Source: Candidatus Omnitrophota bacterium (GTDB lineage: Bacteria; Omnitrophota; Gorgyraeia; Zapsychrales; Zapsychraceae). From it: a stretch of DNA of 34,146 nucleotides. This document shows, piece by piece, positions 168-30,900 of the stretch (within the stretch, counting starts at the first letter, position 1; every line of letters starts with the position of its first letter). The stretch spans positions 1-34,146 of the forward strand of contig JACROV010000096.1 in NCBI GenBank assembly GCA_016214285.1. The letters are read 5' to 3'. The translations under genes and the position numbers were made by a program. The notes beneath the pieces are model-generated. The model worked only from the letters and a program-made list of their open reading frames with translations, ran no database searches and was not told the DNA's origin.

Positions 168-896
168 ATGATGAACAGCGAGTGCCGTGTTATGGCAACT
201 AATACTCAAAATATTTGTGAGGCACAAGACTTAGGCCTTATTGACTACGCCGCCTCGTACGGGATCCAGAAAGAGTGCGTGGCGCGGGTGTTGGCAGGCG
301 GGGCGCAGGTCTTGCTTTTGTGCGAGCACCCGGCTGTGATCACGCTCGGCCGGCTGGCGCAAGAGGCGAACATTTTAAATCTGGAGGCGATCAACCGTCA
401 GGGCATCCGCGTTGTCCCCATTGACCGCGGGGGGGACGTGACCCTGCACGCGCCCGGGCAGTTGGTGGTTTATCCGATCCTGAACCTCGCGCCCTGCCCG
501 CCTGTCCCGCGGAGCGGGACCTACTCGGCAGGCAGGCAGGGTAGCCGCGACTTACGGCTCTATATGCATAAGCTGGAACAAGTTACCATTGCTTTATTGA
601 AGAGTTTTGATATAGTGGCTAGTAGATTTTCCGGGAAAACAGGCGTTTTTGTGGGGCCGGATAAAATTGTTTCCTTGGGAATTGGTGTTCGCAAGTGGGT
701 GACGTACCACGGCTTGGGCCTCAACGTCAATACGGATTTAAAATTGTTCGAATTGATCAAGCCATGTGGTCTGGATGTTCGCATGACTTCGATAGCCCGG
801 ATCAAAGGTAACCCGGTTGATATGAGCAGGGTTAAACAGCAATTGGTCGAATGTTTCAAAAAGGGATTTGGTTATGAGTTTTGTTACACTGCCTGA
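168..896 (+). CDS. lipB: Lipoyl(octanoyl) transferase LipB
   Basis: RGGDVTLHAPGQLVVYPILNL, GVFVGPDKIVSLGIGVRKWVTYHGLGLNVNTDL and IKPCG motifs typical of LipB; contains an atypical in-frame insertion APCPPVPRSGTYSAGRQGS. Confidence 0.93.
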   Translation: MMNSECRVMATNTQNICEAQDLGLIDYAASYGIQKECVARVLAGGAQVLLLCEHPAVITLGRLAQEANILNLEAINRQGIRVVPIDRGGDVTLHAPGQLVVYPILNLAPCPPVPRSGTYSAGRQGSRDLRLYMHKLEQVTIALLKSFDIVASRFSGKTGVFVGPDKIVSLGIGVRKWVTYHGLGLNVNTDLKLFELIKPCGLDVRMTSIARIKGNPVDMSRVKQQLVECFKKGFGYEFCYTA

Positions 897-2301: not shown

Positions 2302-3345
2302 ATGTTCAAATATTATCTTTATAGGTTCGCGCGGTTTCTTGTCAACCGATTATCGTTGGTGACGTCCTATAAACTGGGCGTTATTTTATCGGATATCCAG
2401 TATGTTTGTTCTTTCCGGGACCGGCGCGCGGTGCGCAATAATTTACAGAAGATCCTGCCCGCCGGGGCGGACCTATCGGCCATGACCCGGGAGGTGTTCC
2501 GGAACTTCGGAAAATATCTGGTGGAGTTCCTCCGGATGGACGGGATGGTCAATCAGGATTTTATCGCGCGTCGGGTCAAGATCGAGAATATTGATCGGAT
2601 CGCGCGGGCGCTGGAAAAAGGCAAAGGGGCCATTATCATGACGGCGCATATCGGCAACTGGGAGCTCGGCGCGGTTTTGCTCAATATGCTGGGGTATCCT
2701 CTGATGGCGGTCACCCTGCCGCATAAAGAACGTCCCGTTAATGACCTGTTTAATCATCAGCGCGAGGTTCACGGGATCACAGTCGTAGCGACCCATAACG
2801 CCATTCGTAAATGTATGGAACAGCTTAAGAGTAACAAGATCATTGCCATCGTGGGCGACCGCGACTTTACGGTCAAAGGCGGCGAATTGATCGATTTTCT
2901 CGGGGCCAAGGCGTTGATCCCCAAAGGGGCCGCCATATTCTCGAAAAAAACCGGCGCGCCGATCATCCCGACATTTTTGATTCGTGAACCGGATGGCACG
3001 TTCCGGCTTTCTATCCTCGAGCCGATGTTTCCTCCGAAGGAGAAGGAGGCGGATGCGGAGGGCCTTCCCCCGGCAGGCTCCTCCCGCAGGGAGCCTCTCG
3101 GCCTGTGGCCAAAGGCTCCCTGCGGGGAGGAGGAAGAAGAGGCGGTCCGAAGGATCATGCGCCGTTATCTGGCCGTCATCGAAGACCAGATCCGCCGCTA
3201 TCCGACGCAGTGGCTGCTTTTTCGAGAATTCGCCGTTTCTTCCGTTCCGTTCCGGAATGGAACGGAACGGAACAGAGCGGAAAAAACGAATACCCAGGAT
3301 ATGAAAAACCTGCCTGACCGTAGACAGGAATTATCAGCGTATTGA
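2302..3345 (+). CDS. Lysophospholipid acyltransferase family (LpxL/HtrB-like)
   Basis: MTAHIGNWELGAVLL (HX4E motif), GDRDF, GAAIFSKKTGAPIIP, YPTQWLLF; carries an in-frame palindromic insertion and a palindrome-encoded C-terminus. Confidence 0.85.
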   Translation: MFKYYLYRFARFLVNRLSLVTSYKLGVILSDIQYVCSFRDRRAVRNNLQKILPAGADLSAMTREVFRNFGKYLVEFLRMDGMVNQDFIARRVKIENIDRIARALEKGKGAIIMTAHIGNWELGAVLLNMLGYPLMAVTLPHKERPVNDLFNHQREVHGITVVATHNAIRKCMEQLKSNKIIAIVGDRDFTVKGGELIDFLGAKALIPKGAAIFSKKTGAPIIPTFLIREPDGTFRLSILEPMFPPKEKEADAEGLPPAGSSRREPLGLWPKAPCGEEEEEAVRRIMRRYLAVIEDQIRRYPTQWLLFREFAVSSVPFRNGTERNRAEKTNTQDMKNLPDRRQELSAY

Positions 3346-21623: not shown

Positions 21624-22541
21624 ATGCCTTACAAGTGTCGTTTCCTTAAAGTGAAACGAATTGTCGTGGTTTTTGCCGTTGCCTTCCTGGTTCCTGCCCC
21701 TGCGTTTGCCGCGCAGGAATCCTTCCCCTTTTTAGCCCAAGCGATCAACGAACGCGTCAATGTCCGCGCCGGACAAAGCCAGAACTTCGAAAAACTTTAC
21801 CAATTAGAAAAAGGTGAAGAAGTTATCGTCGTGGGCAAGGATTTCAGCTGGTATAAGGTCCAGATTCCTCCAAGTACGTATGTTTACATTAGCGACAAAT
21901 ATGTGCGTCTGGTCAACAGCATGCCTGTAGGCTCTTCCCCGCAGGCCGAGAGGCTCCCGGCGGGAGGAACCTCTGGCCTGCGGGAGGAGGGAGAGATCAT
22001 CGGTGACCGCGTGAATGTCCGGTCTTCCGCGAAGGTCGAGTCGACTATTCTGGGCCAGGTGGAAAAAGGGTCACGCGTTCGCGTTCTCGAGAAGATCCCT
22101 GGATGGTACAAGATCGCCCCGCCGGCACAGGTTTTCGGCTGGGTTGCCGACGGACTGGTAAAATTTAAATCCAGGGACATCACGGCGTATCATCCAAAGG
22201 AGAGGCATCAAGAAGGATCCCCGGCCGGCGAACCAGGCAGCGAGGCAAGCGAAACAAGCCAGGCGCCGCAACCCGCGACGCAAGGGGCAGCATCCGCCAA
22301 TTCCCAAAAGGTTTCGGTAACCGGAGTCCTGCGGTTATTACCGCCGCGCCAGGATAATATTGACGTGTCCTATGAACTGCTCATCCGCAACAAGTCCGCC
22401 TATTTTATTCAAGGTCCGCGCGCCATGTTCGACGATTTTGCCCGCCACACGGTCACGGCCGAGGGGGCGTTAAACGCCGATCTTGAAAAACAGTTTTTAA
22501 GGCCTGTCCTGAACGTTGCCCGGGTCCAATTGGTGTTGTAA
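21624..22541 (+). CDS. SH3b-domain exported protein (two SH3 repeats)
   Basis: Signal peptide; ERVNVRAGQSQNFEKLYQLEKGEEVIVV and DRVNVRSSAKVESTILGQVEKGSRVRVLEKIPGWYKI; palindrome-encoded linker between the repeats. Confidence 0.85.
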   Translation: MPYKCRFLKVKRIVVVFAVAFLVPAPAFAAQESFPFLAQAINERVNVRAGQSQNFEKLYQLEKGEEVIVVGKDFSWYKVQIPPSTYVYISDKYVRLVNSMPVGSSPQAERLPAGGTSGLREEGEIIGDRVNVRSSAKVESTILGQVEKGSRVRVLEKIPGWYKIAPPAQVFGWVADGLVKFKSRDITAYHPKERHQEGSPAGEPGSEASETSQAPQPATQGAASANSQKVSVTGVLRLLPPRQDNIDVSYELLIRNKSAYFIQGPRAMFDDFARHTVTAEGALNADLEKQFLRPVLNVARVQLVL

Positions 22542-28628: not shown

Positions 28629-28919
28629 GGAATCTGAAAGATTCCCGGATTAGGTCCCCGAAATTTTTCTGAATTTCGGGGACGATTAAACCTTTGCGCC
28701 CAGATTCGCCATCGTTGTCAATGCCAACCCTTTTCGTTCACGTTCGCCCCTCCCCGCGGGGAGGGGCTCAAGTTCACTCCAAGGTTTGGCATTGACCGGT
28801 GACCTTTTTTTCGGGAAAGTTTGCCTCACTGTGAGCAGGGCATCGTGAGGCCGAGGCGGCCGAGGAGGCTCCCTGCGGGAGGGAAAATGAACGTCCCTGC
28901 CGAATAGTGAGGAAAACTT
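28629..28919. repeat. Four successive inverted repeats upstream of uvrB
   Basis: GGAATC-TGAAA-GATTCC (28629-28645); GTCCCCGAAATT-N6-AATTTCGGGGAC (28654-28683); GTCAATGCCAACC/GGTTTGGCATTGAC (28717-28796) enclosing CCCCTCCCCGCGGGGAGGGG (28747-28766); AAGTTTGCCTCACT/AGTGAGGAAAACTT (28817-28919). Confidence 0.8.
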
Positions 28920-28920
28920 C

Positions 28921-30900
28921 ATGGATAGATTCGTCCTTCAGAGCAAATTTAAGCCTGTCACGGAACAAATGGACGCGGTCGATAAGCTCGTGGGGGGCAT
29001 CGAAAAAGGCGGGCAGTCCCAGGTCCTTCTGGGCGTTACGGGAAGCGGCAAGACATTCACGCTGGCCAACGTCATTGAGCGCATCAACCGTCCCGCACTG
29101 GTCATTTCCCACAACAAAACATTAGCCGCCCAGTTGTACAGCGAGTTTAAAGAATTCTTCCCCAACAACGCGGTCGAATATTTTGTCAGCTATTACGATT
29201 ATTACCAGCCCGAGGCCTACGTTCCCCAAACGGACGTTTATATTGAAAAGGACGCTTCCATCAATGACAACCTGGATCGTCTGCGGCTGTCTTCGACCAC
29301 GTCGTTGATGTCCCGCCGGGATGTCTTGATCGTCGCCAGCGTTTCGTGCATTTACAACCTCGGGGCGCCGCAAGATTATAAGAAATTCCTGTTGTATCTG
29401 GAAGAAGGCCAGGCCATGGACCGTGACGCGGCGCTGCGCAAGCTGGTGGACATCCAGTATGAACGTAACGACAGCGACCTCGCGCGCGGGAAGATCCGTG
29501 TCCGGGGCGACACTCTGGAAGTATATCCGGCCTACAAGCAGGAAGCAGTCCGCGTCCAGTTCTTCGGCGACACGATCGAGAAGATATCGGCCATTGATCC
29601 TGTTTCCGGCAATGAGATCCAGCGTTTGACTAAAGTCGCCGTTTACCCGGCGAAACATTTTATCACCTCGCCTGATAACATCGACCGGGCGCTCGTCCTG
29701 ATCGAGGAGGAATTAGAACAGCGCCTGAAGGAACTTAAAAGCGCGGGGAAATATGCCCAGGCCGAACGGCTCGCCTCACGGACCAAATATGACATGGAAA
29801 TGCTCAAGGAGGCAGGATATTGCCACGGCATTGAAAATTATTCCTGCGCGCTTTCGGGCCGCGGGGAGGGAAGCCGGCCGTTTTGTCTGATAGACTATTT
29901 CCCTGAGGATTTTGTCACGCTCATCGATGAATCGCACGTGACTATCCCGCAATTGAATGGCATGTACGAAGGCGACAGATCCCGCAAGAAGACTTTGGTT
30001 GAATATGGATTTCGTTTGCCGTCTTGTCTGGATAACCGGCCGTTGAAGTTCAATGAATTCATGGGATTGATCAAACAGCGGATCTACGTTTCGGCGACAC
30101 CGGGGCCTTTCGAGAAAAAGGACAGCCACGCTAAGGTCGTTGAACAGATCATCCGTCCCACGGGGATCGTTGATCCGCCCATTGAGATCCGGCCGACCAA
30201 GGGGCAGGTCGATGATCTCATCAAAGAGATCAAAAAGCGGGCGAAGAAAGACGAGCGCGTGCTGGTGACCACGCTGACCAAACGCATGTCGGAAGACCTT
30301 ACCCAATATCTCGAAGAACATGGATTGAAAGTCAAATACGTCCATTCGGACATCGAAACGATCGACCGCATGCAGATTCTTAAAGACCTGCGTTTGAAGA
30401 AATTCGATTGTCTGGTCGGTGTTAATTTACTGCGTGAAGGATTGGACCTGCCAGAGGTTTCGCTGGTCGCTATTTTTGACGCGGACAAGGAAGGGTTTTT
30501 GCGTTCGCAGACTTCTCTTATTCAAGTATCCGGGCGGGCCGCGCGCAACATCAACGGCCTGGTCATCATGTACGCGGACCGTGCCAGCGCGGCGATGAAG
30601 GCAACTATCCGGGAATGCGACCGCCGCCGGAAGATCCAGACGGCGTTTAATAAAGGACACGGCATCACGCCCCGGACGATCCAAAAGGCCATCCGTAACG
30701 GCATTGAGGAATTGTCGCGCGAAGGGGCCCAGGAGCTGATTTTTGCCGTTGCGGGGCAAAATGAAGAGGAGTATACTCTAGCCAATCATATCGCGCGGAT
30801 GGAGCGCGAAATGGAACTGGCGGCGCGTAATTTGCAATTCGAGCGTGCGGCCATGATCAGGGACAAGATCAAAGAGATCAAAGGCGAAAAAATAAGATGA
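28921..30900 (+). CDS. uvrB: Excinuclease ABC subunit B
   Basis: GVTGSGKTFTLANVI, SYYDYYQPEAYVPQTDVYIEKD, YFPEDFVTLIDESHVTIPQLNGMYEGDRSRK, GVNLLREGLDLPEVSLVAIFDADKEGFLRS. Confidence 0.99.
   Translation: MDRFVLQSKFKPVTEQMDAVDKLVGGIEKGGQSQVLLGVTGSGKTFTLANVIERINRPALVISHNKTLAAQLYSEFKEFFPNNAVEYFVSYYDYYQPEAYVPQTDVYIEKDASINDNLDRLRLSSTTSLMSRRDVLIVASVSCIYNLGAPQDYKKFLLYLEEGQAMDRDAALRKLVDIQYERNDSDLARGKIRVRGDTLEVYPAYKQEAVRVQFFGDTIEKISAIDPVSGNEIQRLTKVAVYPAKHFITSPDNIDRALVLIEEELEQRLKELKSAGKYAQAERLASRTKYDMEMLKEAGYCHGIENYSCALSGRGEGSRPFCLIDYFPEDFVTLIDESHVTIPQLNGMYEGDRSRKKTLVEYGFRLPSCLDNRPLKFNEFMGLIKQRIYVSATPGPFEKKDSHAKVVEQIIRPTGIVDPPIEIRPTKGQVDDLIKEIKKRAKKDERVLVTTLTKRMSEDLTQYLEEHGLKVKYVHSDIETIDRMQILKDLRLKKFDCLVGVNLLREGLDLPEVSLVAIFDADKEGFLRSQTSLIQVSGRAARNINGLVIMYADRASAAMKATIRECDRRRKIQTAFNKGHGITPRTIQKAIRNGIEELSREGAQELIFAVAGQNEEEYTLANHIARMEREMELAARNLQFERAAMIRDKIKEIKGEKIR

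Follow-up and report, generated by a model that had tools for sequence, protein, structure and literature searches.

A probable mobile palindrome with a 21-nt unit, inserted in frame and nested in genes of one Omnitrophota genus

In a Candidatus Omnitrophota bacterium, the gene for an LpxL/HtrB-type lysophospholipid/lipid A acyltransferase (2302..3345, forward strand) carries an in-frame insertion of 63 nt (+21 codons; 3070..3132, forward strand) that has no counterpart in orthologues. Very probably it is a compound copy of a mobile palindrome that is short, non-coding and non-autonomous and that occurs in one Omnitrophota genus. Rickettsia supplies the best-known palindromic elements that lie in frame, and intragenic REPs are scattered elsewhere. 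Here the host belongs to a candidate phylum, the length is quantised, all six frames are used, the nesting is legible and site occupancy differs among sister species.

All coordinates refer to the window, the whole 34,146-nt stretch of contig JACROV010000096.1 (GCA_016214285.1) that was analysed. The source genome comprises 1.82 Mb in 104 contigs and its nearest public relatives are Omnitrophota MAGs. The evidence is entirely computational and the genus genomes used were MAGs, all of them fragmented and incomplete. Copy numbers of the 21-nt element were obtained from searches and from the loci surrounding the matches. Insert lengths were compared for 34 gene contexts with copies, searched in three sister genomes; for each gene-internal copy the length came from whichever of at most three relatives gave the cleanest comparison. 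Since DNA-level gap lengths are noisy against divergent relatives, lengths were taken from the closest relatives and from protein alignments. Nesting was tested by removal of 21-mers from compound inserts, with block-shuffled controls that were permitted looser matches.

The acyltransferase reading frame is uninterrupted from 2302 to 3345 and matches PF03279 (Lip_A_acyltrans, 2.3e-42), as expected from a preliminary description that had the gene remain open; the sequence, stem and translation of the palindrome were also as given there. Orthologues are present in 38/38 relatives. The closest (G005/UBA10147; same genus, 85-86% aa identity) has a clean, empty site, and the protein alignment shows the insert segment missing from all 32 orthologue sequences that extend across the site (from 28 genomes, of which four appear twice). 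An alignment with orthologues had been proposed as a check on the insertion, and all those compared lack the peptide segment. The insertion had been placed at 3061-3133; it stands as an insertion but is best placed at 3070-3132, 63 nt relative to the closest orthologue. It corresponds to about residues 257-277, after the core's last beta strand and before the C-terminal helix. The AlphaFold model of the protein, with PatA and LpxM as structural matches, has the insert as a low-confidence loop (pLDDT <50, residues 256-272) within a mostly confident fold. At the RNA level the palindrome folds with -51.2 kcal/mol (z = -3.65), and 0/200 shuffles were equally stable. The C-terminal tail of the gene, at 3238-3300, bears a second perfect hairpin with 14-bp arms, TTCCGTTCCGTTCC-ggaat-GGAACGGAACGGAA, and its length is unlike that in G005.

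Comparison of copies yields a sharply defined conserved block of 21 nt, here called type A (CCGRNAGGCTCCCTKCGGGAG), which is preceded by G in 29/35 units and followed by GAR (G in 33/35, A in 25/35, purine in 35/35). A type B unit is likewise 21 nt long (CCARAGGCTCCCTGCGGGGAG). The unit is a hairpin whose GC stem has 5 bp and whose loop has 3 nt, with the 5' arm CCGRN-AGG, and its preferred insertion target is G^GAR. No target-site duplication was resolved, the junction ambiguity being 0-2 nt. For 30 genes an internal copy could be set against an orthologue, and in these the orthologue site is empty; in 25 of the 30, comparison with at least one relative gives a net insert of 7, 14, 21, 28 or 35 residues. 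The five exceptions to the 21-nt rule are L115 (24 nt), L020, L027, L029 and the variable L006.

Lengths beyond 21 nt are accounted for by nesting. The acyltransferase insert decomposes into three nested units with 1 mismatch in 63 nt, against at least 9 mismatches in block-shuffled controls. Its outer unit, type A on the forward strand, begins with CCGGCAGGCTC at 3070..3080 and continues with CCTGTGG at 3102-3108 and GAG at 3130-3132; the decomposition joins the three parts to CCGGCAGGCTCCCTGTGGGAG, with 1 mismatch to the consensus. Enclosed in it are a type A unit in reverse orientation (CTCCCGCAGGGAGCCTCTCGG; 3081..3101, reverse strand) and a type B unit (CCAAAGGCTCCCTGCGGGGAG; 3109..3129, forward strand), each with 0 mismatches to the consensus, and both interrupt the outer unit at GG^GAG, a sequence similar to the preferred genic target. 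The preliminary description had recognised a nested palindrome and an inserted palindromic element, and both points hold; it had also taken the whole for one element of about 70 nt, which gives way here to three nested units of 21 nt, the long palindrome being attributed to repeated self-insertion.

The same description had mentioned sequence in common with other loci of the window, and two such loci were found. One is a second 63-nt compound copy (21924..21986, forward strand), in frame in the gene of an SH3-domain protein (21624-22541), which corresponds to a 21-residue gap in three same-genus orthologues and resolves into three nested units with 4 mismatches, where controls need 16 or more. 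The other is a single unit (28861..28882, forward strand; model match 28859-28885, E = 2.0e-4) in the spacer upstream of uvrB, which starts at 28921. Among the compounds 10/11 decompose better than all of their own controls: L004 does so with 0 mismatches against at least 4, and L009, a poor case, by a narrow margin. For L121 no decomposition into nested 21-mers was obtained.

We propose that the 21-bp unit copies itself to new places, favouring G^GAR. As its own arms contain the target GG^GAG, repeated insertions would nest and thereby form compounds of 42, 63, 84 or 105 bp. A gene that receives insertions gains 7n residues and escapes truncation, as 21 is a multiple of three and no more than one of a unit's six frames can contain a stop. 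Selection would retain insertions in loops that tolerate them and remove harmful ones. Transposition would be carried out by an enzyme acting in trans and would be near-neutral for the host; the genus MAGs examined yielded no mobilising enzyme. It is quite possible, if short of probable, that the mechanism is an undescribed one, in which an element of 21 bp, about two DNA turns and seven codons, carries its G^GAR target in its own arms and grows by 21s only.

The genic copies occupy every one of the six reading frames (forward 9, 8, 4; reverse 3, 5, 11). Only one frame of the unit can contain a stop, TAG, if the fifth base is T; four copies lie in that frame and none of them has the T. Hosts include AceE, MetH, UvrC, FtsH, TrpE, MoeA, NqrA and PriA, as well as a FadJ-like protein, a RecB-like helicase, protoporphyrinogen oxidase, Lgt and a ComEC-like protein. 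In AceE, 28 residues are inserted between PMPPMP and EGVRDG, where E. coli AceE is continuous. Judging from the preservation of frame, the inserts are apparently translated and form extra loops in the proteins. Yeast mitochondria have mobile GC clusters and byp elements, very short GC-rich palindromes in coding sequence, and the Omnitrophota element is like these in being a short palindrome within coding sequence and unlike them in that they are organellar. Byp elements are skipped by the ribosome and their length need not be divisible by three. Were ribosomes to hop over the Omnitrophota inserts as they do over byp elements or in T4 gene 60, the proteins would be unchanged, and hairpins with GGA-like flanking triplets do recall known bypass sites. 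Such hopping would not require a length divisible by three, yet every clean insert measured is a multiple of three; in addition, no in-frame stop occurs among the genic copies listed, and the TAG-capable frame holds only T-less copies; we regard it as very improbable.

The family comprises about 60 copies in the source genome. A genome search with the element had been suggested in the preliminary description, and the 73-nt query matched 74 pieces, which makes the element multi-copy. When one mismatch at most was allowed, the 14-nt core AGGCTCCCTGCGGG gave 59 matches in the source genome versus 0 for the reversed control pattern, far more than chance would give. With a 27-position model 66 matches were obtained in the source genome, 13-20 in each of four sister genomes and 0 in G004, the fifth sister genome. 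Each of 32 genomes from the same family or order gave 0-1. A strict pattern was present in 3/286 phylum genomes, namely the source genome, G005 and G297, the last belonging to another family. The element family is nearly confined to one genus. In G297, from another family of the order, one unit (L217) lies in frame in an XerC/D-like integrase gene (identified by eye); together with one further G297 copy it is the sole hint of the element outside the genus, and horizontal transfer to G297 is possible.

Most element sites are private to one species, for example the in-frame copies found only in G005 in alaS-, lpd- and uvrC-like genes (named by eye). Two sites are occupied in two species each: a radical-SAM site is occupied in the source genome and G003 and empty in G005 and G004, and a site in protoporphyrinogen oxidase is occupied in the source genome and G005 (62/63 nt identical) and empty in G003 and G004. 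The radical-SAM gene of the source genome (L118) has the element in common with G003 only, and the segment compared is ~97% identical to that of G003 (L166) and ~90% to that of the otherwise closer G005; gene exchange between species is possible. Fragmented and incomplete genomes such as these might be thought to generate the inserts by faulty assembly or binning. The family was found, however, in five separate MAGs, and two insertions stand at the identical gene position in two MAGs with element identities of 62/63 and 19/21 nt, and we give an artefact hardly any credence.

Conservation of two sites between species, along with the strength of the hairpins, would also be expected if the inserts were retained for a function, either as regulatory RNA hairpins or as useful protein loops. 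The copies nevertheless sit in unrelated genes, in six frames and both orientations and at mostly species-private sites, and 0 Rfam families were matched at threshold; below threshold only miRNA hairpins were matched, as any long stem would give. Retention for function is thus improbable as an explanation of the family.

Among known systems, the element works like the palindromic elements of Rickettsia (RPEs) and like intragenic REPs, yet it is probably a separate family, RPEs being judged here by their description. RPEs are about 150 bp long and form ten families in Rickettsia (PMC10969869). As with RPEs, dispersed palindromes lie in frame in unrelated and housekeeping genes, and orthologues can be without them; in-frame palindromes with frames kept were found in the 30 genes compared. 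The RPE-like behaviour claimed in the preliminary description is therefore borne out by empty orthologue sites, dispersed copies, kept frames and sites that differ between sister species, but the likeness ends with behaviour, since RPEs have another unit length, host phylum and tags. The Omnitrophota unit measures 21 nt and its compounds 42-105 nt, against ~100-150 bp for RPEs, insert lengths come in steps of 21, and the nesting can be read from the sequence. Prokaryotic MITEs are repeats that are short and non-autonomous and may become part of host ORFs (PMC10969869); they measure 70-300 bp, with terminal inverted repeats of 15-30 bp (PMC3733652). The Omnitrophota element is also short, non-autonomous and joined to ORFs, but its 21-nt unit lies far below the MITE size range and its compounds are explained by nesting. 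The Omnitrophota literature retrieved by a full-text search describes no such palindromic elements in its titles and abstracts.

REPs come closer in size. They are palindromes of 20-40 bp, often paired. Where GTAG/CGTC-tagged copies lie within genes, as in Opitutus terrae and Rickettsia conorii, the inserts encode 20-30 residues, in genes for DNA repair among others (PMC3733652). The 21-nt hairpin fits the 20-40 bp range and its units stand head-to-head in compounds. The element could accordingly belong to the REP family proper, where an IS200/IS605-like RAYT (TnpA-REP) inserts the hairpin via single-stranded DNA and inverted pairs form BIMEs. Size, hairpin, inverted pairs and dispersed copies agree with this, intragenic REPs are known elsewhere (PMC3733652), and the source genome has one Y1_Tnp fragment. 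REPs are mostly intergenic, however, whereas at least 30 of the 55 clusters examined here lie inside orthologue-aligned genes. REPs also have a fixed tetranucleotide tag, whereas in the Omnitrophota element no fixed tag and no RAYT linked to it were found and the quantum is exactly 21 nt: the bases before GCTCCC vary among the 35 type-A units (GCAG in 10, ATAG in 10, AGAG in 7, GTAG in 1), and CGTC is not among them. The only Y1_Tnp of the source genome is partial, at a contig end, on a contig with 0 units; G003 has 20 units and 0 Y1_Tnp, and G005 has 4 Y1_Tnp and fewer units than the source genome. In these incomplete genomes a link to Y1_Tnp/RAYT is unsupported, as Y1_Tnp does not correlate with the number of elements and is not flanked by units. 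We consider membership in the REP family unlikely.

Further hairpins were seen in the window and elsewhere. The lipB gene (window 168-896) has a 15-codon in-frame segment which is missing from three relatives and is built on a different hairpin at 504-522 (AGGTCCCGCTCCGCGGGAC) with a similar CCGAGTAGG arm; this hairpin has five exact genome copies and constitutes a second, smaller family of similar kind. Upstream of uvrB, a long imperfect palindrome with 43-nt arms lies at 28717-28796, and the unit in L024 lies within a similar GGTCAATGCCAA... arrangement. Intergenic copies such as L120 and L026 have a GGGAGGAG end directly before the likely start codon, which could serve as a Shine-Dalgarno sequence. 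L091 (G000 contig C43) bears a CCCTTCGACAAGCTCAGGG palindrome, which presumably occurs in many unrelated genomes.

Because the sites are quantised, nested and differently occupied, counting, dating and structural mapping can test both the ways in which selfish palindromes survive in important genes and the possibility that they give rise to new protein loops. Annotation of Omnitrophota genomes is affected, in that the inserts put unrelated-looking segments into conserved enzymes. If the reading with an undescribed mechanism is true, few known DNA elements that disperse would be as small as this one of 21 bp, and it would be a steady supply of seven-residue protein insertions with which nearly all frames are compatible.
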